Origin: Levilactobacillus enshiensis
Lineage (GTDB): Bacteria > Bacillota > Bacilli > Lactobacillales > Lactobacillaceae
Length of the DNA: 64,000 nt
Direction of reading: 5' to 3'
Assembly (NCBI RefSeq): GCF_007115095.1
Contig: NZ_SULH01000008.1
Span: 1 to 64,000 of the forward strand
Part shown: in pieces, positions 580 to 14,827 of the stretch
Position numbering within the stretch: the first letter of the stretch is position 1
Layout of the letters: every line of letters begins with the position of its first letter
Notes under the pieces: generated by a model
Told to the model about the DNA's origin: nothing
Database searches by the model: none
Seen by the model: only the letters and a program-made list of their open reading frames with translations
Program-made: the position numbers and the translations under genes

Positions 580-1872
580 TTAAAAAACACCGGTAATAAC
601 TCGCTTCTGCTCGCCATTCCGCTGGTCAATATGCAACGCAAATCGCCTATCCTCTGCTGTCAAAACGAGATAGCGAAAAGAACTGCCATCCGCATCGGTC
701 AAATTAAAGCTCATCCCTTGATTAGTTACCACATCGCGATCAAATCGATTCCGATGACCGTGAACTGAAATAATGTCCCGAACCGCTTTGGCGTCTGCCC
801 AAACCTTATCGATATCTCGTGAGTAGACAGACTTTCCCGCAACGCTTAGGCCATGGATAAAAACATCTGCGGGCGCAAGGGCAATGCTTTCGGTCAACGT
901 TTTGGGTTTCAACCAGCTCATCACTTGCGTCGGCTCTAACCCAGCATGACTGAATAGAAACTTGCGGCCAGCGAATTTAAGCGCTAGGTATGTGCCCAAT
1001 CCATTAATAAATTGATGAATTTCGTCTTGGCTGACGTGGGCGCGTTCCAGTTGGGGCAAGGTCACCTGCCCAAAATCCTTAGTAGCGGACCGACTCAGCC
1101 GGTGTTCTAGGTACCAGGTCAGCAGGCGATGTTCATGATTGCCGAGAAGATGTAGTCCCGTATTGTATGCCTGCAACGTTCTAATGACCCCCGCTGAATC
1201 ACGACCACGATCAATGGCATCGCCGAGAAACACAACTTCAGTTTGTGAGGATGCTAGTTTTGACAAACGTGATTGCAAATTGTCGGCGTCACCGTGCACA
1301 TCGCTAAAAACCACTAACCGCTTTGTCGTCGCACTTACTTTTCTAAATTGTAGCGGTTGTTGCAAGTCTTGCAGAAACTTATCCAGACCGATGACGGTTC
1401 CCATGGTCGACCAATCTACCGCCGTATACCGTGCTAAGTAGCGCGACCAACGCTGCCGAACCCCATCGTCATAGCCCATAGCAATCGCATCAGCCGGCTT
1501 GATCGGCAAGTCCATCGCATTCACGAATACCACCTTATACCCCCAGGCATCAGCTAGTAAACGACGAAACAAGTGGAGCCGGCTCTTGGATAGCAGATTC
1601 ACGGCTAAAATAACCGTCTCAGCGGAATCGAATCGTTTTCGCAAGAGTTCAGCTAGAATCCGGTCAACCAATGGCACAATGCTCGGATTAACAGAAGTTG
1701 TCAGCTGCCCTTCCTCGTTCAGCAGCAGTTGCGGATTGCCAACCGCCAGTCGCAGACGCTGTTCAGAAATCACCTGTTTTTCCAGCCCGTGAGCCCGCAA
1801 CCAGGATTCTGCCCCTGGTAAGCCTAAATAAGCGTAGATGATTTTTCCGTTTGTCGATTTCTCGTCGCCCAT
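580..1872 (-). CDS. Degenerate Pnkp-type kinase fused to PPP-like metallophosphoesterase
   Basis: This 430-residue protein has two parts. Residues about 185-430 form a calcineurin-like phosphoesterase with all metal-site motifs: SDVHGD (190-195), GDAIDRG (217-223, arginine kept), GNHE (244-247), SHAG (308-311) and HGHR (371-374). Residues 1-180 resemble in layout the kinase half of bacterial polynucleotide kinase-phosphatase (Pnkp). However, the P-loop is reduced to GLPGAES (17-23) and lacks the Gly-Lys-Ser/Thr needed for ATP binding, so kinase activity is unlikely. The phosphatase half could act on RNA or nucleotide phosphates; the substrate is unknown. SD AAGGGAG precedes the ATG, two bases after the stop of the upstream gene, so the pair is one operon. 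The Pnkp ligase domain is absent. Confidence 0.8.
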   Translation of the reverse strand: MGDEKSTNGKIIYAYLGLPGAESWLRAHGLEKQVISEQRLRLAVGNPQLLLNEEGQLTTSVNPSIVPLVDRILAELLRKRFDSAETVILAVNLLSKSRLHLFRRLLADAWGYKVVFVNAMDLPIKPADAIAMGYDDGVRQRWSRYLARYTAVDWSTMGTVIGLDKFLQDLQQPLQFRKVSATTKRLVVFSDVHGDADNLQSRLSKLASSQTEVVFLGDAIDRGRDSAGVIRTLQAYNTGLHLLGNHEHRLLTWYLEHRLSRSATKDFGQVTLPQLERAHVSQDEIHQFINGLGTYLALKFAGRKFLFSHAGLEPTQVMSWLKPKTLTESIALAPADVFIHGLSVAGKSVYSRDIDKVWADAKAVRDIISVHGHRNRFDRDVVTNQGMSFNLTDADGSSFRYLVLTAEDRRFALHIDQRNGEQKRVITGVF

Positions 1873-1874
1873 AG

Positions 1875-2378
1875 TTAACTCCCTTCATCAAGTTCTGCAT
1901 ACCGTCTTTTGATGGCTGTCAAAAATTCGAGTTCCTGTTTAGAATAATCGCTTTCGAAGCCTTCCACATCAAATCCCTTGGGATCATGCGCTAGAAATCC
2001 CAATACCTCACTAAACGACTGCGCTTCCCCCGGCCAGTTGTGTTGACGCGAATTTTCATCCCAGAAGCGAAAGAATAACCCACTCTTCGTGAATGTGCCC
2101 ATGACCCAGTCAATGTCGCCAATCTCAGGACCATCCATCACTCGAAAACTCATGCGTTCCAGGAAGTGCCATCCTAGTGTTCTACGCATCTCTTTTTCTA
2201 GTTTTGTTTTACGATTTTTTCGGCGCCAACGCTGTTGGTATGGCGTATCGACGACCCATAGCTCCTTTTTAGGTAAATAGGTTGGTCGCATAACCCCCTC
2301 ATACTTACGTTCAAAACGTCGATTCTTAAAACTTTGATAGACTAATCGTATTGATTTAAAAATAGTTGTGCCCTCCAT
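1875..2378 (-). CDS. Hypothetical protein in phosphoesterase cluster, 167 aa
   Basis: I do not recognise this protein. The N-terminal third is strongly basic (runs such as RWRRKNRKTK around residues 50-60). The C-terminal half is acidic and aromatic, with a WDENSRQHNWPG stretch near 105-116. It has no signal peptide or membrane segment. It sits between two metallophosphoesterase genes and its stop lies two bases from the next ATG, so co-translation is likely. The start is uncertain: the ATG at 2378 has no good Shine-Dalgarno, and a GGAGG lies just inside the reading frame. It could be a nucleic-acid-binding partner of the neighbouring phosphatases, but that is inference from charge and context only. 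Confidence 0.6.
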   Translation of the reverse strand: MEGTTIFKSIRLVYQSFKNRRFERKYEGVMRPTYLPKKELWVVDTPYQQRWRRKNRKTKLEKEMRRTLGWHFLERMSFRVMDGPEIGDIDWVMGTFTKSGLFFRFWDENSRQHNWPGEAQSFSEVLGFLAHDPKGFDVEGFESDYSKQELEFLTAIKRRYAELDEGS

Positions 2379-2435
2379 TTGCTAACTGGATCTATTGATT
2401 GACCTAATTTTACCAGTGAATCCTGAACACAGAGC

Positions 2436-3236
2436 TTACTTCAGACGATACGCTTCCCAACCGTTTTCTGACCTTTTAAAGGCGGTGTAGTGCCCCGTCT
2501 CAGTATCATACTTCAATATTGGCACAATACCACTCGTATCCGTATGACCATCAACAAAAAAGTGACTATCCCCATCCCAATACACCGCGCCCAAATAGGT
2601 GCTATCATTCGCAACCTCTTCAGAATGAATATGACCACTGACAATATCCTTAAAAAACGATCCCTTCGTTGCAGGAAATTTCTCTGTGAACGTAGAATTT
2701 AACGTGCCCTGCTTCCAAAAGTGTCCAGTCTCTTCATCAATGCCAGCATGAACAAAAATTTGATTTTCGAGCTCATAGTATCGTTGAGCAGTCATCTTTT
2801 GTTTTAGCCAGCTTAATACCTTTTCAGCTCTGCCATTTTGCAGGAGCTTCTCACGAAGCAAGTCGTCTAAAACCCTAGGCGTATGCTCAGTTAGCTGAAG
2901 CGCCTGAGCCATTCTCTGTAACTCAACTTCATTAAAAAAACTCGTCACGGTTTTAAAGTCCACAATGGTTGCTTGACGCCCTTCTGCATCGTCTTTAGGA
3001 AACAGCCAATTACATAACCATTCATCATGATTCCCCAGTAAGGTAACAATCTGACCAGGGTTGTTTCGCTCAAGAGTCATGATTTCGCTTAAAACTTGAA
3101 ATGAGTTGGGCCCGCCGTCCACATAATCGCCGACAAAAATCAACTGGTCGGTGGTCTTCAAGTGTACGCCTGCCAGTGCTTGCTTCATAGCCGGATAACA
3201 CCCGTGAATATCGCTCATTGCGTAGATTACTGACAT
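2436..3236 (-). CDS. PPP-like metallophosphoesterase (variant GDYVDGG)
   Basis: This 266-residue single-domain calcineurin-like phosphoesterase resembles bacterial PPP/Ap4A-hydrolase-type enzymes. Motifs in order are SDIHG (8-12), GDYVDGG (36-42), GNHDE (68-72), VHAG (162-165) and GHIH (201-204), so the two-metal site is complete. The arginine of the usual GDxVDRG motif is glycine here; in PPP enzymes that arginine binds the phosphate. Start chosen at the ATG at 3236, preceded by GGAAAGGAATTAATACG; an in-frame ATG at 3260 lies before this site. It follows another metallophosphoesterase by 51 bases in the same direction. Substrate unknown: protein, dinucleoside polyphosphate or RNA phosphate are all possible. 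Confidence 0.8.
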   Translation of the reverse strand: MSVIYAMSDIHGCYPAMKQALAGVHLKTTDQLIFVGDYVDGGPNSFQVLSEIMTLERNNPGQIVTLLGNHDEWLCNWLFPKDDAEGRQATIVDFKTVTSFFNEVELQRMAQALQLTEHTPRVLDDLLREKLLQNGRAEKVLSWLKQKMTAQRYYELENQIFVHAGIDEETGHFWKQGTLNSTFTEKFPATKGSFFKDIVSGHIHSEEVANDSTYLGAVYWDGDSHFFVDGHTDTSGIVPILKYDTETGHYTAFKRSENGWEAYRLK

Positions 3237-3287
3237 CGTATTAATTCCTTTCCAGGACATCGTCTGAGCACAATCGGCAGTTTCAAC

Positions 3288-4094
3288 TTAATCTTCGACC
3301 TTATCAATCAGCATACCCGTATCACTATCGAATATGCCAATGTTCCCCAGTACTTGTGGGTCACCACCACCTGCGCCACCATCCATTAAATAGCGGGGAA
3401 ATTCCCCGGGATAACGAATGGCATAAATGGAATTGTCAGTCGACTTTATTTTGTCATCCGGAACGTCACTTCCCAGCGAACCAGCGTATTTTCCAGCTAT
3501 CCAACCATTGGCTGTATGTCCCGTAATAATGCTAGTTGCCAGTGGATTCCGGCCAAATATGTGTCTTGGTGAGCCCGCATACCAGTAGTCATCTCGTGCC
3601 CACAACCGATCATCATCGGATGAGTCACGAATCGGATTCTCTAAAGCCAGATTCAATCCAGCATGGACAAAGCACAGCTTGCCTACCGTGTAAGTCAGTG
3701 GCAGTGCTCGCATCCAATCGAGTAACTCATGCTTACGATCCAAGACTAACTGGCGGTCCTGGGTGATACCATTGCTTGCGCCTAAAGATGTCGCAACTGA
3801 TTGTAGTGTGTTGTCACCACCAAACTGCAGCCAATCGCGCCGTTGTGCATCGTCAAAAAAATCTACGGCCGCTTGTTCATGATTCCCCATTAACACAACG
3901 GTCCGTGATGGCTCGGCCAACTGCATCGCGCGAATGTCTTCAATTAAGTCGAACCCCTGATTCACGCCAAAGCAATCAATGTAGTCACCAATCAGGACGG
4001 TCACGGCTTCTGGAAACTGTGCCTGTACCCGCCGCAAACGCGTCAGTGTCCCCAACTGGCCGTGCAAATCTCCCAGTGCAATAACAATTCCCAT
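3288..4094 (-). CDS. PPP-like metallophosphoesterase (variant GDYIDCF)
   Basis: This 268-residue calcineurin-like phosphoesterase has GDLHG (8-12), GDYIDCF (36-42), GNHE (70-73), VHAG (143-146) and GHT (192-194). The phosphate-binding arginine of GDxxDRG is replaced. It is a clear paralogue of the next gene upstream (4351-5160): motif positions match almost exactly, both have VHAGL followed by NPI and D, and both end with GNIG, FD and DTG motifs after a Met/Ile-Asp-Gly-Gly turn. The SD is GAGGAGAG. Tandem duplication is the simplest explanation. Product should be cytoplasmic (no signal peptide). Substrate unknown. Confidence 0.8.
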   Translation of the reverse strand: MGIVIALGDLHGQLGTLTRLRRVQAQFPEAVTVLIGDYIDCFGVNQGFDLIEDIRAMQLAEPSRTVVLMGNHEQAAVDFFDDAQRRDWLQFGGDNTLQSVATSLGASNGITQDRQLVLDRKHELLDWMRALPLTYTVGKLCFVHAGLNLALENPIRDSSDDDRLWARDDYWYAGSPRHIFGRNPLATSIITGHTANGWIAGKYAGSLGSDVPDDKIKSTDNSIYAIRYPGEFPRYLMDGGAGGGDPQVLGNIGIFDSDTGMLIDKVED

Positions 4095-4138
4095 ATCCGC
4101 TCTCTCCTCTACTCACTTCAGAACCTAGGTCTTCACAA

Positions 4139-4364
4139 TCATTCTGCAATGCCACTTAAAAAACGACAACTTGCATGTCCATTTTCACCAATCGCTAGTA
4201 AGCCCGTCACCTCACCCGGACGCTTGGCAATCAGTTCAGAAAACTAACAGCGTGTTAAACACTACGTCTCCAGCGTTAGCTGTCTCTGATGGCGCAATCG
4301 GCTTAATCCCCAAGCCAGCCTCACTTGCTATTGCCCATTTGTCGCTAAATCTATCTATTGTCAT
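4139..4364 (-). pseudogene. Small ORF broken by a one-base frameshift
   Basis: Between two metallophosphoesterase genes an ATG at 4362-4364 overlaps the end of the upstream gene by 14 bases and opens a frame that stops with TGA at 4236-4238. Just before that stop is a run of four T. Removing one T joins the frame to a second open stretch ending with TGA at 4139-4141, giving one product of about 74 residues starting MTIDRFSDKW and ending RFLSGIAE. A recent indel, a sequencing error or a regulated frameshift could explain this. I do not recognise the product. No strong SD was seen, so translation would depend on coupling. Confidence 0.45.
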
Positions 4365-5160
4365 CCTCTATCGCTTCGATCAATCGTCCGGTATCCGCAT
4401 CAAAGACACCAATATTACCCGTATTAATGGTTGGACCAGAATGATTTCCTCCATCAATAAAGAAACGCGCATATTCGCCTTCGTACTGAACGGTCAAAAT
4501 CCCCCGCGGACTCACGCTCCGATTTCGCAGAGTTTCTGCAGCTGCCTGACCATCATAAACGCCCGTTATCAGACTAGTTGGGGTATGGCCAGTAATAATT
4601 GCTTTTTGTAAAGGATTGTGTGCATAGTGGGGATAGATGGCTGTATACCAGTATGGTTCACGGAGCCAAAGCTTCTCGCGTTCCGGGGTATCCTTTATGG
4701 GATTAGCCAGGGTGAGGTCAAGTCCTGCGTGAACAAAGACTAGTTTGCCAATCTGCAGCGTTGTTGGTAACTTTCCCATCCAAGTAATCAGGGGTGCATA
4801 GTCTCTTTTTACCATCCCAATGGCTTCTTCTAAACTACCTGGCGCCTGAGTAGCACCCAACACAGCTTCAGCAATCACGTCATCACCACCTGCCTCCAGC
4901 CAGTAGCTATTTTTCCCTGTCAGGCTTTCGTAAGCATCTTCGTCGTGATTCCCCTTGAGAGCAAATACGTGTTCTGGATCTTTTTGCTGCCACTGCATGA
5001 TTTCTTGTGCAACACTAAACCCTGTATGGTGATGGAAGGAATCTTGGTAATCACCATCGAAGACGATGGGGGCATCTTTAAAGCGATGGCGGATTTTCTT
5101 AACCTTTGGTAGGACTAGCATCTGCCCGTGTAGATCACTGACGGCAATTACGGGTTTCAT
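4351..5160 (-). CDS. PPP-like metallophosphoesterase (variant GDYQDSF)
   Basis: This 269-residue calcineurin-like phosphoesterase is the first gene of the leftward cluster. Motifs are SDLHG (8-12), GDYQDSF (36-42), GNHDE (70-74), VHAG (143-146) and GHT (191-193). As in its paralogue downstream, the arginine after the second metal-binding aspartate is lost, while all metal ligands are kept. The SD AGGAGG lies 9 bases before the ATG. The C-terminal part (DGG, then GNIGVFD) is shared with the 3288-4094 protein. Together with the two other phosphoesterases it forms an unusual same-strand group. Substrate and biological role are unknown. Confidence 0.8.
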   Translation of the reverse strand: MKPVIAVSDLHGQMLVLPKVKKIRHRFKDAPIVFDGDYQDSFHHHTGFSVAQEIMQWQQKDPEHVFALKGNHDEDAYESLTGKNSYWLEAGGDDVIAEAVLGATQAPGSLEEAIGMVKRDYAPLITWMGKLPTTLQIGKLVFVHAGLDLTLANPIKDTPEREKLWLREPYWYTAIYPHYAHNPLQKAIITGHTPTSLITGVYDGQAAAETLRNRSVSPRGILTVQYEGEYARFFIDGGNHSGPTINTGNIGVFDADTGRLIEAIEDDNR

Positions 5161-5299: not shown

Positions 5300-5770
5300 A
5301 TGGAAACACACAACGACAAGTTCAGAAGGTTAGGTGAAAAAAGGCTCAGTCGCATATTCCAAACGATGAATCTCATTGCTAATCTTTCCGACTCACAATA
5401 TCGTTACACGCCAGACGATATTGACGAGCTCTTTATGACCTACCAAAAACTAGGTGAGGCAGCCCGAGCTTACTTTCAAGGCCCTACTCGCTATAATGAA
5501 ATGCCTAGTAGCTTTGCTTTTGATAACACCTCAACCCTTCCACCGGAATTTCAGACGGCTCATAATCGTTTCCGTCGTCTGGCTGAGAAGCGGATGAGTC
5601 GCGTGCTACACGATCTACGTTTACTGACCAATCTTTCTGATCGATCTAACTACACCTTTTCTCCCGAAGAAGTTGACCAGATGTTCACAGCTTACAGCAT
5701 GAAGGGCCTGACCATCGCCGCACTTTTTTCGCCCCGAACAACTGAATTTCACTTTTTGCCCAAGCACTAA
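5300..5770 (+). CDS. Protein with two tandem copies of a helical module, 156 aa
   Basis: The protein contains the same roughly 57-residue module twice, at residues about 4-60 and 88-144. Each copy has a basic start (KFRRLGEKRLSR and RFRRLAEKRMSR), a central NLSD motif, an acidic T/SPDD or SPEEVD turn and an aromatic end. A proline-rich linker joins them. Similar single modules occur in small proteins of lactobacilli and other Firmicutes, often on plasmids or beside DNA-modifying genes, but I cannot name the family with confidence. A GGAGG site precedes the ATG. It has its own promoter and an intrinsic terminator. The basic helices suggest nucleic-acid or protein binding (inference). Confidence 0.65.
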   Translation: METHNDKFRRLGEKRLSRIFQTMNLIANLSDSQYRYTPDDIDELFMTYQKLGEAARAYFQGPTRYNEMPSSFAFDNTSTLPPEFQTAHNRFRRLAEKRMSRVLHDLRLLTNLSDRSNYTFSPEEVDQMFTAYSMKGLTIAALFSPRTTEFHFLPKH

Positions 5771-6385: not shown

Positions 6386-7039
6386 TCATTTTAAGTTGAG
6401 CTTTTGACGGCCATCGTAGATCCCAGTAACCAATTTATCGGCTTTTGGTCCTTCATATGCTACGGTCGCAAATGACAACTCAATTTTTCCAACCTTGGTC
6501 ACGCGTTTTCTTGAATACAATAACATCTCAAAGTGACTCTTTTGATGCGGCTTCAAGTAAGAGGAAGCCGAATTAGGGCCGGCCGTAATTGCGTTCTGAT
6601 AAGTCACGTTGACCAACATATGGTTACTCTTACTATTTTTGGCGGAGAATATAAAATTGGACTTCATTGTGTTTTCAAATCCAACAAGGTTGTAATTGGA
6701 AATACCATCCATACTATTCCTCCCAAATCTGTAAAAGCCAGCGTCACTATTATTGTAGGCCGTCCCGGTGACTTTGGCCCAAGTCGCGTATTTTGCATTC
6801 TGGTTTGAAACCTGATAGATATACAAATTATTCAGTCTTATTTTATAATTTGAATTCTTAAAGCGAAATGTTTTTTTAAGTGGATAGGCTTTTTTACTAG
6901 CATAATTTTTATGAACTTTTTTAGCGCCATAGTTTTCATAAAAATTAAAAACCTTTTTCTTTGCTTGAGCCTGTGTTGTCATCCCTAATGTTCCCATCGC
7001 GACCACCATTGCTAGTAGTAAATGCCTTAATTTCATCAT
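6386..7039 (-). CDS. Secreted protein of unknown function, 217 aa
   Basis: A typical Sec signal peptide occupies residues 1 to about 27: MMKLR, a hydrophobic core, then TTQAQA before cleavage. The mature part is very basic and rich in Lys, Tyr, Asn and Ser (for example KKVHKNYASKKAYPLKK). It contains probable beta strands and no catalytic motif that I recognise. Start chosen at the ATG at 7039, after AAGGGTG; a TATAAT -10 box lies just upstream. Divergent from the next secreted protein gene, with 98 bases between them, so the two may be controlled together. A cell-surface or extracellular role is inferred from the signal peptide. Accessory gene. Confidence 0.7.
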   Translation of the reverse strand: MMKLRHLLLAMVVAMGTLGMTTQAQAKKKVFNFYENYGAKKVHKNYASKKAYPLKKTFRFKNSNYKIRLNNLYIYQVSNQNAKYATWAKVTGTAYNNSDAGFYRFGRNSMDGISNYNLVGFENTMKSNFIFSAKNSKSNHMLVNVTYQNAITAGPNSASSYLKPHQKSHFEMLLYSRKRVTKVGKIELSFATVAYEGPKADKLVTGIYDGRQKLNLK

Positions 7040-7137
7040 ATCTAACACCCTTCTTTATACTAAATTATACCGTCTTCGCTAACCATGTTCAAAGCATGAT
7101 GTTTCATGGTAAACTCAAATAAGAGGAGTTGGCTATT

Positions 7138-8010
7138 ATGAAATTAAACAGTAAGCTTAGTATTGTTTTAGGGATAACGTTTGGCATAGCATTGTGTCTG
7201 GAATCTTCCCAATCAGCTCAAGCTGCCACAACGTATACGGTCGTTTCGGAAAAATGGCCCATTGCACGACCAGCGTATCGGGCAAAGTATCCTAGTAAAA
7301 AGGTTGCGCTTTGGAATAAAAAGCACACTAAACGATATGGCTATTTGAATGATCGTCCCAATACAACGTTCTCACGTAGTTCGATTACGGTCCTGCAACA
7401 TAACAATAAAAAAAGCACTTATTATTACGTCAGTGCTGGTGGTACCAAAAGCCATCCTAAGGAAACACTCGGTTATGTTTGGAACGGGTATTTGACCAAA
7501 GGATTAGCAATGGATCTTCTCAAAAGTCGTTATGTTCCATTAGAATCATTCTCAAACAATAAGGACTACGCAAGCTACGTTAACCACTCAAAATCACAAA
7601 AGATTACTCAGGCTTTAGTCAACGCATTACCAAATATGCGGTTAAGCCTAGATTTAACTAACATTGCAGCTTATAAATTCGGAGAAAATATGTCTGACGA
7701 AAATCTATCTCGTCCCGGCATTAAATCTAGCTCTCTAAAGACGAAAAACTACACGCATATCATGTACTTCCCTAAGGTTACTGCCTATTTAAAGCGAAGT
7801 AATACCGTCGCAACCGCTACCCGGCTCAAGCAAGTTAAGCGGATCCTAGCAAAAGACTACGGATTAACTACTGCCAAACTAAACAGTCTAAAGAATTACC
7901 AAATTGGGCTAAACATTGCTGAAAATACCACCGGTAATAAGACCACTGATAACGGTCCTCAAGCCATTAAATTCTATGCTTTTGCTATTGCGCAACGAGT
8001 AAACCAGTAA
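7138..8010 (+). CDS. Secreted surface-type protein of unknown function, 290 aa
   Basis: The N-terminal signal peptide (about residues 1-32) ends SAQA-A. Residues 33-120 are rich in Tyr, Lys and Thr and resemble in composition the cell-wall-associated repeat regions of lactobacillus surface proteins, including a YVWNGYLTKG segment like that seen in small secreted proteins of this group. Residues 120-290 have several helices and a charged character; no enzyme motif is recognised. GAGGAG precedes the ATG at 7138. It lacks an LPxTG anchor, so any wall attachment would be non-covalent (inference). It is divergent from the secreted gene at 6386-7039. Confidence 0.7.
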   Translation: MKLNSKLSIVLGITFGIALCLESSQSAQAATTYTVVSEKWPIARPAYRAKYPSKKVALWNKKHTKRYGYLNDRPNTTFSRSSITVLQHNNKKSTYYYVSAGGTKSHPKETLGYVWNGYLTKGLAMDLLKSRYVPLESFSNNKDYASYVNHSKSQKITQALVNALPNMRLSLDLTNIAAYKFGENMSDENLSRPGIKSSSLKTKNYTHIMYFPKVTAYLKRSNTVATATRLKQVKRILAKDYGLTTAKLNSLKNYQIGLNIAENTTGNKTTDNGPQAIKFYAFAIAQRVNQ

Positions 8011-8172: not shown

Positions 8173-8850
8173 CTACAATTCTACCCCAATAATTGCATGG
8201 TCTGAGAAAAGATTCTCTCCTTTCACCATACAGGAGTCATCGATGAACACATGCTGATAAGCTCGCCCCTTCCTAATAAATACGTAGTCTAACTGCGTAC
8301 CAAACATGGATGTTGATCCTTCTGGCAAGGCACTCCTAAAATTAGGTAGCCGAACGCTCGTTGCCTGTTCTGGGTTGAAATCACCAATGATCACACTAGT
8401 ACTAGTGTCTCCTTCTCCAAACTCAACAACCTGTCTAAAGAAGTCTTCATAGGTTGGATTACTGGGCTGTGGGAAATGCACCCCAAGAACTGTTAGACTA
8501 TCAAGCTTCAGGCTCATCCACTTTGCTGATTTGGAAACGATTCCAGTTCCATCCTTGGCTCCTTCAAGACGATTATGACGATTCACTGACTTTCTCACAG
8601 CAACAACAACAGCAGCATACCAGCAACGATTAAAGCCTTGGGGGTAGTAAAATACATAGTCGTTTAATAGTGCACAGGATATGAGGCTAAAGATTACCGG
8701 ATCCTCTTCGGTAAAATAAATAATATCTGGGCGTATTGATTTTATCGTATTTATAATTCGAACGGTTCTTAGTTCACTCGAGATATCATTTTCTCGTAAC
8801 ATGGGATGACTTCTCGCTAATGGTGGAATGTTAATAGAAACTATCTTCAT
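8173..8850 (-). CDS. Endonuclease/exonuclease/phosphatase (EEP) family protein
   Basis: This 225-residue protein has the fold signature of the EEP superfamily (DNase I, exonuclease III, inositol-phosphatase relatives): SIN near residue 6, TEED (47-50), VHFP (124-127), IIGDFN (154-159), LDYVF (187-191) and the terminal SDHAII (216-221). These supply the metal-binding acids and the His/Asp catalytic pair. It has no signal peptide, so it acts in the cytoplasm, on DNA, RNA or a phosphorylated small molecule; which one cannot be told. It follows the 8881-9651 gene by 30 bases in one operon. It adds a fifth phosphoesterase to this accessory stretch. Confidence 0.8.
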   Translation of the reverse strand: MKIVSINIPPLARSHPMLRENDISSELRTVRIINTIKSIRPDIIYFTEEDPVIFSLISCALLNDYVFYYPQGFNRCWYAAVVVAVRKSVNRHNRLEGAKDGTGIVSKSAKWMSLKLDSLTVLGVHFPQPSNPTYEDFFRQVVEFGEGDTSTSVIIGDFNPEQATSVRLPNFRSALPEGSTSMFGTQLDYVFIRKGRAYQHVFIDDSCMVKGENLFSDHAIIGVEL

Positions 8851-8880: not shown

Positions 8881-9651
8881 TCAAAGAAAGGGATGATTGG
8901 CCTCTTTCTCAGCCCAATACCACCGAGCCAAGTAAATCAGCTTACGAACTTCAACAGGATCCTGCAATAGCGGTTTACCGGCATCCTCTGCTTGTTGAAA
9001 TCGTTCTCCAAACTCATAAATGGCATCCAGTAACCAAGGATCTTCTAAAAATAAAATTTGACGACAATAATCGCCAATTCCACTAAGTTGATTCCTGAAG
9101 CTTTTTGATTCAAAGGCATTATCCAAGTAAGATTTAAACATTTTCTGCTCATGATGTGTAAATCCTTCAAATATACGCGGTGAATTTTCCGTATAATAGT
9201 GGTTCAATTCCACTAAGAATACGGGCAACCATCGTGACTTAGGCAATCTTCTACCATCAAAAATTGGCATTAAGCTAAAATTCAGATAGCTAGAAGTTCG
9301 TCTAACACAATCTGTCCAAAGATCATTTAATTTTTGTGCTGATTCTGGTTCACTTGGTTGATCAAAAACAGCGATTGGTATTTCATCGAACTTGAAGTCT
9401 AAACTTCCCGTTACCGCAGCTTCATCTCCAAATAACTGACGGCTCTTTGAACCCTGTTTGAATAAGAATGCAACTCCTTTATTAAAGCGAATACTTCCAT
9501 CGCTAAACCAAACATCATCTGAGAACTTCCACTGAACATGGCTATATGTAATCCATAAAAATTCCATTGCAGCCAGTGATGACTCCACATCCGGATGCTT
9601 ATTATTTTCTTTTCTTTCAAAGTTAGTATCTCTAGTAATATCTCGTCGCAT
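8881..9651 (-). CDS. Hypothetical protein upstream of the EEP gene, 256 aa
   Basis: I do not recognise this protein with confidence. It is soluble, rich in Trp, Phe and Asp, and contains conserved-looking stretches such as WTDCVRR, RWLPVFLVELN and LIYLARWYWAEKEANHPFL at the C-terminus. No catalytic signature was seen. The start is uncertain: the GAAGGAG site lies about 20 bases before the ATG at 9651, and internal starts such as MEFLW are possible. A promoter at 9729-9757 drives this gene and the EEP gene. The tight pairing suggests a shared function, perhaps as partner or inhibitor of the phosphoesterase (inference). Confidence 0.6.
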   Translation of the reverse strand: MRRDITRDTNFERKENNKHPDVESSLAAMEFLWITYSHVQWKFSDDVWFSDGSIRFNKGVAFLFKQGSKSRQLFGDEAAVTGSLDFKFDEIPIAVFDQPSEPESAQKLNDLWTDCVRRTSSYLNFSLMPIFDGRRLPKSRWLPVFLVELNHYYTENSPRIFEGFTHHEQKMFKSYLDNAFESKSFRNQLSGIGDYCRQILFLEDPWLLDAIYEFGERFQQAEDAGKPLLQDPVEVRKLIYLARWYWAEKEANHPFL

Positions 9652-9872: not shown

Positions 9873-11215
9873 GTGACATACCACCATCTAGCTTATACCT
9901 ATGAAATCTTCAGTAGTCGTAAAATCAAGAAACTTGCTCGTGAAAATACACCCGCTGGTTGGCTAACTGCCGACCCGGTTCCTTCATATCGAACTATTTG
10001 TCGTTTTTGTATTTCGGATAAATTAGCTAACCTGACACATCAAAGTTTAAAAAAATTAACATCGTTTTTGAAAGATACCGGCGTAATTGACGACGGCACA
10101 TTTACTGATGGGACTAAAATTCTAGCCGATGCCAATAAGTATAGTTTCATGTGGCGGAAGAACACCATCCGTTTTGACAAAATGAATCGGGACCAACTGG
10201 TTTCGATTTTGGGCGAACTCCACGAAGCAAAGCTCATCAGTGAAGTCCCCGCTGGATTTGATCCTATGAAGAGTATGTTGGACGCCGTCATTGGAAAAGT
10301 TGAGGATAAGTTGGTTACCTTAGACGAAGAAGTTCAGGCAATTAGGAAAATCTCACCCAACCCAGCCAAGAAACAGCGACGGCTTCTTAAATCACAGTGC
10401 CGAAAACTAGACCAACGACGGGACAAGATGATTGAACATCAGCAACAGCAAGCAACCTACGGTCAACGAAACAGTTACTCTAAGACTGATTATGATGCCA
10501 TTTGCATGAGGGTTAATGAAGATCCAATGCAAACTAGCCTACAATCTTCAAATCGTAACGAGTAATCAATTTATTACCGGATACAATCTGTTCCAAAAAC
10601 CAACCGGTACACGAACCTTTCCACTATTTTTAGCAAGGTTGAAATCGCAAAATGTGCCTAGTAAAGTCATTGTGGCCGATGTAGGTTACGGTTCGGAAAG
10701 TAACTACCACTATTGCAAAGATGAAATCAACAAACACGTCGTCTTGGTGCCTTATGAGACAATTCGGGAAAGGTAATGAACTGGAATTATTACGATAAAA
10801 GTGACTATTTTGTGGATTCGAAGGGCGTTCGATTAACTTCAAAACCTATCGAAAAAGCACTGATAAATATGGTCTTACACGTAAATTAAAAGAATATGAA
10901 GTCGAAAAATATGATGAAAACCATGAAGAAATCCCAGCCGCCCTAACACCAAAGAAAAATCTTCGTCGAATTAGAGTGAATTAATCCTGTGAATACTTTA
11001 AATCCAAGGAGCGCACACAGCTTTCAAAACCAGAAAATAAGGCTATCTACGGGCTTCGAAAGATTGAAGTAAAGCCAATTTTTGGCAAAATGAAAGCTTA
11101 TTTGCGTTTTAATCGCTACTCAGTCCGTGGTCTAGAGAAGGTTAAAAAGAAAGTGGAATTCTCGTTCTGGCCTTGAACATTCTCAAGTTAGTCTCCACCA
11201 GGAGAATTGTGGCTT
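9873..11215 (+). pseudogene. Decayed IS1182-like transposase
   Basis: The segment encodes pieces of an IS1182-type transposase in different frames: 9873-10565 (DDGTFTDGTK, then ADANKYSFMWRK), 10516-10776 (VADVGYGSESNY), about 10772-10982, and a tail to 11215 (FGKMKAYLRFNRYS). The first roughly 60 codons are missing, at least three frameshifts separate the pieces, and an in-frame stop lies near 10981. It therefore cannot make an active enzyme. The DDE-type catalytic regions are recognisable but split. A terminator hairpin follows at 11236. Confidence in the family is good, from the overall motif order. Confidence 0.8.
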
Positions 11216-12313: not shown

Positions 12314-12829
12314 CTATTTTTTCAAAGCTAAGATCTCATGCTTTAATTCTTTAAAAAGACTCTCAAAAGTATCTTTGTTTGTTGGAGCAATCAGCTCTGC
12401 CAGTCTGGACTCACAATCGCTTAGGATGCTACCAATATCTCTCGATTCAGAATCAAGTAAAGTTGAATCATTTTGAACTAACATGGCACCTTTAAAAATA
12501 AACTTTAGAGTTACTCCTAAAGTAATGCTTCTAGTCCCCGCAAATTGAGGCAAGTAATACTTATAATTTTGTATAGTTTCTTGCATTTGTGGACTCAATT
12601 GAACTCGAATCCGTAAATCTTTTTCTGTTATTTCCTTTAACGTTTTTATACTGGCTGAAGTGTTATTTATCACTTTATCCCATCGACTTAAGTTAGATAT
12701 ATCATCCAAAGCTTTAGAAATTATCATTGCCTGTGTCATAGGCTTTCCATATGCTTGCTCATAAACATCTCTTAATGCTTGGAAGATTTGTGCTGTTTCT
12801 TTAGATATTCTTACCCGAAGATATTCCAT
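12314..12829 (-). CDS. Possible double ribbon-helix-helix DNA-binding protein, 171 aa
   Basis: Two segments begin with an alternating basic strand followed by helices: LRVRISKETAQ (4-14) with the GKPMTQAMIISKAL turn and helix, and LRIRVQLSPQM (about 72-82) with a similar turn and helix (TRSITLGVTLKFIFK). This spacing is typical of ribbon-helix-helix modules, so one chain could form an intramolecular RHH pair. The C-terminal third is helical. SD AAGGGG precedes the ATG. Single-gene unit with its own terminator, next to lepA and the IS graveyard. Possible role: local repressor or plasmid/antitoxin-type regulator, inferred from the fold only. Confidence 0.5.
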   Translation of the reverse strand: MEYLRVRISKETAQIFQALRDVYEQAYGKPMTQAMIISKALDDISNLSRWDKVINNTSASIKTLKEITEKDLRIRVQLSPQMQETIQNYKYYLPQFAGTRSITLGVTLKFIFKGAMLVQNDSTLLDSESRDIGSILSDCESRLAELIAPTNKDTFESLFKELKHEILALKK

Positions 12830-12994: not shown

Positions 12995-14827
12995 TTACTC
13001 AGTTTCATCCTCATCAGTCTTCAAAACTGCCATGAACGCTTCCTGCGGGATATCGACCTTGCCGACAGCCTTCATGCGCTTCTTACCAACCTTCTGTTTC
13101 TCCAGCAACTTCATCCGCCGGGTACGGTCACCACCATAAAGTTTGGCAGTCACATCTTTCCGGTAGGCCTTGATGGTCGTCCGGGCAATGATTTTTGCCC
13201 CAATGGCCGCTTGCACTGGAATTTCGAAGTTTTGGCGTGGAATGATCTTCTTCAAGCGGGACGCAATTTCACGACCCCGAGCTGCGGCGAATGTCCGGTG
13301 GGCAATGAAGCTCAGCGCATCGACCTTGTCGCCATTCAGCAACAGATCGATTTTAACCAAGTCGGCTGCCTGATAACCATTCATTTCGTAGTCCAATGAC
13401 GCGTACCCCCGCGTGCTGGACTTCAGCTTATCAAAGAAGTCAAAGATGATTTCTGACAACGGCATGTTGTAGATGATGTTCACCCGGTAGTCGTCCAAGT
13501 ACTCCATCGTCAGGAATTGGCCCCGACGATGTTGGCAGAGCTCCATGACGGCCCCCACGTAATCGTTAGGCGCCATAATCGTTGCCTTGACCACCGGTTC
13601 CTCGATTCGTTTGATGGCGGAAGCCTCTGGCATTTCTGCTGGGTTTTCAACTTCCTTCATCCCGCCGTCCGTCAAGTATGCGTGGTACGTTACGGATGGG
13701 GCCGTGGTAATCAAGTCTAAATCGAATTCCCGTTCAAGCCGTTCCTGAATAACGTCCATGTGCAGCATCCCTAAGAACCCACACCGGAACCCAAATCCTA
13801 AGGCTTGTGAAGCTTCTGGCTCAAACTCCAACGCAGCATCGTTTAGCTTCAACTTTTCCAAAGCCTCACGCAAGTCATTCAACTTAGCGTTGTCAGTTGG
13901 GTACAGCCCGGCATACACCATGGGACTCATCTCCCGGTAACCTGGCAAGGCCTTTTCGGCTGGATCAGCGGCGTTGGTAACCGTGTCCCCAACCCGGGTG
14001 TCGGTAATATCCTTAATGCTGGCCGTGATATAACCCACGTCACCCGCAATCAGGTTATCCCTAGAGATTGGCTTTGGCGAGTTAACGCCGACCTCGGTCA
14101 CCTCATATTCGCTTCCGCTGTTCATTAGACGAATCTTATCGCCCGGTTGAACCGTCCCTTCAAAGAGCCGCACGCTCAGCACAACTCCCCGGTAATCGTC
14201 ATAGACCGAGTCAAAGACCAAGGCCTTCAAGGGCGCGTCCAAAGCACCAGTTGGCGCCGGCACCTTATGGACGATCTGTTCCAGAAGTTCTGGAATCCCA
14301 ATCCCCTTTTTGGCGCTGGCCAGTACGGCATCGGAGGCATCCAAACCGATCACATCTTCGATTTCTTGCTTAACCTTTTCTGGATCAGCGGCTGGCAAAT
14401 CAATTTTATTTACGACGGGCACGATTTCCAGGTTGTCGTCCAACGCCAAGTACACGTTGGCTAACGTCTGCGCCTCGACCCCTTGGGCAGCATCAACGAC
14501 CAAGATGGCCCCTTCACACGCTGCCAGACTCCGTGAGACCTCATAGGAGAAGTCTACGTGTCCTGGGGTGTCGATCAAATGAAACTCATAGTCATGGCCA
14601 TCCTTAGCGTGATAAGTCAATTCCACCGCGTTCAGCTTGATGGTAATTCCCCGTTCACGCTCAAGGTCCATGTTATCCAACACTTGATCTTGCATATCGC
14701 GCTTGGAGATGGTATCCGTTAGCTCCAAGATGCGGTCCGCTAACGTTGATTTCCCGTGGTCAATATGTGCCACAATGGAAAAGTTGCGAATGTATTTTTG
14801 ATGGTTTTTTAATTTCTCAAGATCCAT
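12995..14827 (-). CDS. lepA: Elongation factor 4 (LepA), ribosome back-translocase GTPase
   Basis: This 610-residue translational GTPase, the normal LepA length, binds ribosomes and affects translocation and ribosome biogenesis. G motifs are clear: AHIDHGKST (G1, about 21-29), DTPGH (G3), NKIDLP (G4) and SAKKG (G5). The LepA-specific C-terminal domain is present ([25 protein letters not shown]), which inserts towards the peptidyl transferase centre. It is single-gene here, with a promoter at 14865-14894 and its own terminator. In relatives lepA lies close to dnaJ; here the dlt operon lies between them. Confidence 0.97.

Follow-up and report, generated by a model that had tools for sequence, protein, structure and literature searches.

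Here we describe a cluster of phosphoesterase genes in a 64,000-nucleotide stretch of Levilactobacillus enshiensis DNA (assembly GCF_007115095.1, contig NZ_SULH01000008.1, positions 1 to 64,000; hereafter the window), near its left end, which is also the start of the contig. Four genes for metallophosphoesterases (MPEs), P1, P3, P4 and P5, stand there in one run with a small companion, P2. Together with further companions and with relatives in other genomes, we tentatively read them as a mobile, modular multi-phosphoesterase locus of Lactobacillaceae that may act on RNA ends or nucleotides, with infection by phages as the likeliest occasion. The composition of the cluster is well supported; its substrates, a joint action of its enzymes and a role against phages are what we infer.

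All four MPE genes lie on the minus strand (P1, 580-1872; P3, 2436-3260; P4, 3288-4094; P5, 4351-5160) and pass the Pfam gathering cut-off of 21.5 bits for PF00149 (Metallophos) with 46.9, 56.9, 40.8 and 38.6 bits, respectively. Inspection of the translations finds the (G/S)DxHG, GDxxD, GNH(D/E), (V/S)HAG and GH motifs in each, which is the full metal and catalytic set. A preliminary description of this DNA had reported four PPP-type MPEs with complete metal motifs in one leftward run, and both points hold, as does the tight spacing it saw between 1872 and 3288: the gaps are 2 bp between P1 and P2, 57 bp between P2 and P3 and 27 bp between P3 and P4, followed by 256 bp between P4 and P5. That such a number in one place is unusual can now be put in figures. 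The 3.07-Mb genome holds 15 PF00149 proteins (13 from the genome search, plus P4 and P5, which were unlisted there), and when 15 were placed among an assumed 2900 genes, four or more fell within five consecutive genes in 0 of 400,000 random draws. Coincidence is ruled out as the source of the grouping by this random-placement test and by the recurrence of linked genes in other genomes; indeed, the occurrence of homologous clusters elsewhere, in further species and genera, is our reason for taking the MPE genes to belong together. The frameshifted open reading frame (ORF) that had been placed between two of the MPEs is not counted as a gene: what the P4-P5 gap holds, on the minus strand at 4142..4364, is a pair of short fragments (4364-4239 and 4240-4142) that do not share a frame, and separate searches with them turned up nothing at E<=0.05 in the related loci compared. 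Scans for promoters and terminators returned no more sites than in shuffled sequence.

P1 (430 aa) is the member that ties the cluster most directly to RNA. It joins an N-terminal pseudo-kinase domain (residues ~10-170) to a C-terminal PPP-type MPE domain (~185-405); residues 16-406 match phrog_8238, 'RNA ligase' (E 3.2e-34), and the fold matches both the phosphatase and the kinase of C. thermocellum PnkP. Sequence and fold thereby bear out, for P1, the earlier suggestion of a link to RNA, in the form of kinship to RNA end-healing enzymes. The kinase appears to be dead. At the P-loop position the window protein reads GLPGAES, with no GKS/T ending, and the canonical P-loop is gone in all six P1 proteins, as against GKST in all three full-length comparison enzymes; the loop lysine is missing in five of the six (in G334 a Lys-Thr lies two residues out of register), and the aspartates of the kinase DxxR and FVDST motifs are lost in every one. 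The ligands and motifs of the phosphatase centre are kept, including the arginine of GDxxDR (GDAIDRG), and the protein ends ahead of the ligase domain. P1 is thus best explained, from its sequence, as an amputated RNA-repair-type enzyme that would keep only its 3'-end phosphatase centre, the dead kinase domain probably serving substrate binding or dimerisation. Relatives occur in 45 phage records (43 over >=80% of P1) and 14 plasmid records, all below 60% identity. One distant homologue, full-length and with its P-loop, is encoded by a Herelleviridae phage of L. brevis. A chromosomal enzyme of the full-length phage kinase-phosphatase-ligase type, P-loop intact, was also seen in another Lactobacillaceae genus (G316, L059:5684-7879).

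P3, P4 and P5 form a second group of PPP enzymes. P3 (274 aa, PF00149 5e-15) is ApaH/NinI-like with the motif GDYVDGG, and it probably starts at 3236 (266 aa) because AAGGA stands before the ATG there; P4 (268 aa, PF00149 4.2e-10) carries GDYIDCFG, and its paralogue P5 (269 aa, PF00149 2e-9) carries a GDYQDS-HHH signature that is invariant in 8/8 proteins. All three match phrog_246 (E from 1.1e-26, for P3, to 1.2e-19), and P3 and P5 match PPP structures in the PDB. The arginine of GDxxDR is replaced by G in P3, C in P4 and S in P5, also in the orthologues compared. Studies of lambda phosphatase and C. thermocellum Pnkp reportedly show this arginine to be needed for monoester and not for diester hydrolysis, and from its absence we predict that P3-P5 act as phosphodiesterases. 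All three fail the NCBIfam equivalog cut-offs for ApaH, PrpE and Ser/Thr phosphatases: the ApaH-type matches of the MPEs reach 38 and 62 bits against a cut-off of 176 (the 62 bits being P3 with NF001204), and P3 scores 24.2 against 340 for PrpE. Distant relatives of P3 occur in 352 phage records, mostly of Staphylococcus, Enterococcus and Listeria phages, with 78 covering >=80% of the query; those of P5 occur in 61, of which 59 are Listeria phages and none covers over 80%.

P2 (167 aa; 1875..2378, minus strand) matches no known family. Library searches gave no match in Pfam at E<=1, in PHROGs or NCBIfam at E<=0.1 or in PADLOC at E<=1, its AlphaFold model is poor (mean predicted local distance difference test score 58.8), and Foldseek returned no match below E 3. 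Its ATG has no obvious Shine-Dalgarno sequence (2340-2378), and the true start may lie further inside the ORF. What marks P2 is its company: in 10 of the 11 bacterial loci read, all but that of G141, an MPE gene lies directly beside it, and we regard P2 as a putative phosphoesterase partner. No match was found in named phages or plasmids; two short patterns run on viral contigs found one distant P2-like protein (26% identity; L177:5073-5468), in IMGVR_UViG_3300002597_000001 (109 kb), where BLAST finds nothing similar to the cluster MPEs within 5 kb of its gene. Further companions stand to the right. The rep gene (5300..5770, plus strand) is divergently transcribed and encodes 156 aa in two related halves; a similar domain forms the N-terminus of a protein of the endonuclease/exonuclease/phosphatase family (EEP) in other species (loci L035, L036 and L122). 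The window has its own EEP (225 aa; 8173..8850, minus strand), with a PF03372 match of E 7.8e-05 that at 23 bits falls under the 24.5 cut-off, and with conserved GDFN and SDH motifs. The '256' gene (8881..9651, minus strand) encodes a protein of no known family and without a match in named phages, and the '171' gene (12314..12829, minus strand) a 171-aa protein with a below-cut-off match to DUF6809 (E 5e-5).

Recurrence was followed by profile searches of a family sample of 397 Lactobacillaceae genomes, the counts for P1, P2, P5 and rep assuming an identical sample, and in a genus sample of 35 genomes; a true P5 was required to reach E<1e-140 in the former and E<1e-110 in the latter. On this footing, true P5 occurs in 7/397 genomes. 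P2 occurs in nine, including all seven with P5 (G141 and G318 have it without P5), and an order-wide search found it in 2/282 genomes, both Levilactobacillus. P1 matches occur in six; one of them, the kinase-intact enzyme of G316, is left out of the count, and the other five are of the window type, all within the seven P5 genomes; rep is strong (E<1e-80) in four, again all among the seven, with weaker matches in G242, G405, G207, G339 and G091 (E 5e-47 to 6e-7). The P5 profile matches 55 genomes, 48 of which hold only weaker relatives. Within the genus sample, P1 of this type occurs in 3/35 and P5 in 5/35, with weak matches in seven more. The seven P5 genomes come from four genera and therefore do not represent seven independent events. 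A P5 pattern scan of 84,980 species genomes found eight loci, all recorded as Lactobacillaceae and six of the true type, L066 and L067 having 27% identity and no other cluster genes; this is a lower bound, as G005 and G375 are not among its loci.

Nine loci were read gene by gene, and full-length MPEs number four in the window, four in L. hammesii (G010), three in HBUAS51381 (G022), one in G005, at least one in L. fuyuanensis (G009, where a contig end interrupts the locus), two in L064, four in Lactiplantibacillus pingfangensis (G200), five in G375 and five in Lacticaseibacillus parakribbianus (G334). L064, a metagenome-assembled genome, and G009 share 95.5% identity in P5 and are therefore not independent. 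Linked to the MPEs are 256 in seven of the nine loci, EEP and rep in six each, 171 in five, a small MPE of phrog_547 type in three and a Zn-ribbon-like protein, so labelled from its cysteines and a weak TFIIS match, in two. Homologous clusters thus recur in several species and genera, as the preliminary description had proposed to check, whereas the same gene order does not: linkage of the genes extends over four genera, with a shuffled arrangement. Nor are the homologues simply lone housekeeping phosphatases that never co-occur, though P4/P5-like genes also stand alone. Partial sets occur as well. In G318 a bare pair of P2 and small MPE adjoins a phage integrase gene, in G207 a rep-EEP fusion is found close to the Zn protein, a resolvase gene being adjacent, and in Lacticaseibacillus G242 and G405 P3 stands with rep and other MPEs, with no P1 or intact P5. 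Two Lacticaseibacillus species, moreover, each have near P3 and rep a similar-looking gene pair of no recognised family (L120:2071-4125, 425 and 258 aa; L121:6516-8607, 447 and 201 aa).

The chromosomal site points to gain and loss. In Levilactobacillus the cluster lies downstream of lepA, which in the window (12995..14827, minus strand) bounds a variable site at its 3' side and which is present in 35/35 genus genomes. Thirty genus genomes have no true P5, and the lepA site was retrieved from 18 of them. Two of these 18 have contigs that end too early, and no cluster genes were found at the site in 16/16 readable genomes, the far flank not being reached in G030. By LepA, the closest species are G013, G002 and G008; the first two are among the sixteen, the third is missing because its contig ends, and all three lack P1 and P5 genome-wide. 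Other occupants of the site are CRISPR-like arrays with a ~28-base repeat and 61-base period in 2/16 (G034, L174:3144-5434; G001, L175:11957-12655) and, in 1/16, an integrase gene of phage type (PF00589) adjoining the 3' end of lepA (G028, L169:11939-13075), which suggests the site as an integration target. The cluster proteins are less conserved than LepA: between the five carriers in Levilactobacillus, P5 identity is 60-75% and LepA identity 95-99%. Between G022 and G005, P2, P5, EEP and rep are 74-82% identical and flanking genes 97.5, 88.9 and 70.2%; since flanking genes fall as low as 70.2%, divergence of the cluster alone shows little. The P5 tree places G200 beside G009, and the P4 tree places it beside L064. 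Gain and loss of the cluster at the lepA site are well supported, and its transfer between genera is suggested. The window flank at 6-12 kb is AT-rich. It includes, in the rep-EEP interval, an AT-rich stretch with two proteins of no recognised family that are probably exported, judged by their N-termini (6386-8010; 220 and 293 aa), no like of which was noted in related loci by Pfam and the one locus comparison used, and, between 256 and 171, a short transposase ORF, probably a remnant (9873-10565; DUF772, PF05598).

Taken together, several binuclear-metal phosphoesterases of types that large phages carry too, an EEP-family phosphodiesterase or nuclease and the proteins P2, rep, 256 and 171 would make up one set, an accessory module that has come and gone at variable chromosomal sites. 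P1 would contribute a healing enzyme stripped of kinase and ligase, and the joint effect of the enzymes might be to free RNA ends or phosphorylated nucleotides of phosphoesters, most likely while a phage infects. The defence role raised in the preliminary description is circumstantial: patchiness, the company at the lepA site, a PD-Lambda-2_B-like gene flanking the G375 locus and the phage kinship of the enzymes speak for it, while that flanking gene is the only clear PADLOC match among the 29 proteins scanned (171 and the Zn protein were left out). Several observations count against a phage-directed accessory set. PADLOC 2.0.0 gave no match at E<=1 for P1-P5, rep, EEP and 256 of the window, and the best for relatives and linked proteins were E 0.0026 (a CorA-like model) and 0.03; membership of a known defence family was set aside, no cluster protein having a convincing match. 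Two short patterns per query found no relative of P1, P5, rep or 256 in viral contigs (two such P3 patterns found 85 P3 relatives, mostly partial). The full set is not obligatory, since P1 and P4 are reduced to fragments in G005, which keeps P2 and P5, and GSHE replaces GNHE in the second P4 copy of G375. P4/P5-like genes stand without other cluster homologues in ~12-17 kb at no fewer than 11 of 14 loci considered (L102, L103 and L104 not judged), several Lacticaseibacillus genomes have such genes away from the rest of the cluster, and hence not all members need the cluster. Finally, AT-richness does not extend to the MPE stretch (1-6 kb, GC 0.45-0.48), and one-clade approximately unbiased tests (p 0.066 for P5, 0.21 for P4, 0.034 for rep) leave transfer not firmly shown.

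How far the genes work together is where explanations part. Perhaps phage-type phosphoesterase genes merely pile up at variable sites as passive hot-spot cargo, which would suit the many phage relatives of P3 and P5, the varying and decaying gene content (G005), the solitary P4/P5-like genes and the integrase or resolvase genes in related loci. We lean against this possibility because P2, rep, 256, 171 and the Zn protein recur with MPEs across genera at different chromosomal places, and P2 adjoins an MPE in all loci save one. A recent tandem expansion of one phosphatase gene, also raised in the preliminary description, would sit well with the 37% identity of P4 and P5 over their whole length; only this pair is close, P1-P3 and P3-P4 sharing 26% and 23% over 170-175 residues. 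P4 and P5 moreover fall into clades of their own, both with orthologues from four genera, and their split is therefore older than the present clusters. Recent duplication is thus ruled out for P1 and P3 and reduced to an old event at most for P4/P5, and as an account of the whole cluster it is very improbable.

Other explanations keep the enzymes functional and change their task. They could be accessory ApaH/PrpE-like hydrolases that, under stress, clear signalling nucleotides of the Ap4A or other types, phages playing no part. This seems to us rather unlikely, given matches far under the equivalog cut-offs, the Pnkp-type kinase fold in P1, a set that is patchy, as housekeeping genes are not, and missing from two close relatives at the same site, and the EEP and several unclassified proteins that also belong to it. 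A system that heals and seals ribotoxin-cut RNAs, like Pnkp-Hen1 or a phage Pnkp with RNA ligase, would account for the homology of both P1 domains to the kinase and phosphatase portion of the phage RNA ligase proteins. The lost kinase motifs and the absent ligase domain tell against RNA repair proper, as does the reach of the phrog_8238 matches in carrier genomes, which cover positions 2-391 of 737 and hence the kinase/phosphatase part only; and because PF09414 RNA ligase is found in 0/8 carrier genomes (RtcB and other ligase classes were not searched for), we consider it distinctly unlikely. Somewhat improbable, too, is the more specific proposal of an undescribed multi-enzyme system of lactic acid bacteria against phages or other mobile elements. 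In it, reduced kin of phage end-healing phosphatases and PPP phosphodiesterases without the arginine, guided by P2/rep companions, would ruin or wrongly process the RNA ends or nucleotide signals on which large phages of these hosts depend. The mobile, modular locus acting on RNA ends or nucleotides is the account that we prefer, with the reserve stated at the outset.

The phosphatase half of an RNA-repair enzyme beside up to four more phosphoesterases and companions of no recognised family makes an unusual inventory, and one that PADLOC does not recognise. Conflict between bacteria and phages over RNA ends, treated in passages of PMC3400036, provides its context: there, T4 is described as healing and sealing PrrC-cut tRNA with Pnkp and Rnl1, and passages of PMC4411300 describe a bacterial Pnkp1-Rnl-Hen1 that repairs ribotoxin damage and whose phosphatase superfamily differs from that of Pnkp. 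The locus is small enough to be cloned whole, one carrier is the culture-collection strain L. hammesii DSM 16381, and the L. brevis phage with an intact P1 homologue makes the question of phage conflict directly testable. Should the function not be defence, P2, rep and 256 would still be defined as phosphoesterase-associated families.

Set beside known systems, the enzymes come from familiar superfamilies, and the ensemble with P2, rep and 256 appears undescribed in the libraries used; titles and abstract openings in the open-licence literature likewise yielded no description of such a phosphoesterase cluster. Closest to P1 are the phage kinase-phosphatase-RNA ligases of PHROG 8238, such as gp053 of Lactobacillus phage 3-521 (781 aa), with which it aligns over both healing domains and shares the metal-site motifs in identical order. 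The identity to gp053 is only 27%, however, P1 has no canonical P-loop, kinase catalytic motifs or ligase domain, and it is chromosomal and stands among other phosphoesterases. From Clostridium thermocellum Pnkp it likewise differs in the missing kinase motifs and ligase domain, in a genome without PF09414. P3-P5 share the phrog_246 match with NinI-like and lambda-type Ser/Thr phosphatases and ApaH, and P3 and P5 the PPP structures, but depart from them in the GDxxDR arginine and the equivalog scores. The small phage phosphoesterases of phrog_547 recur as the small MPE of clusters elsewhere (L056, E 3.6e-46) and not in the window, and the EEP family, matched weakly through PF03372, is represented both by the window protein and by the forms with a rep-like N-terminal domain.

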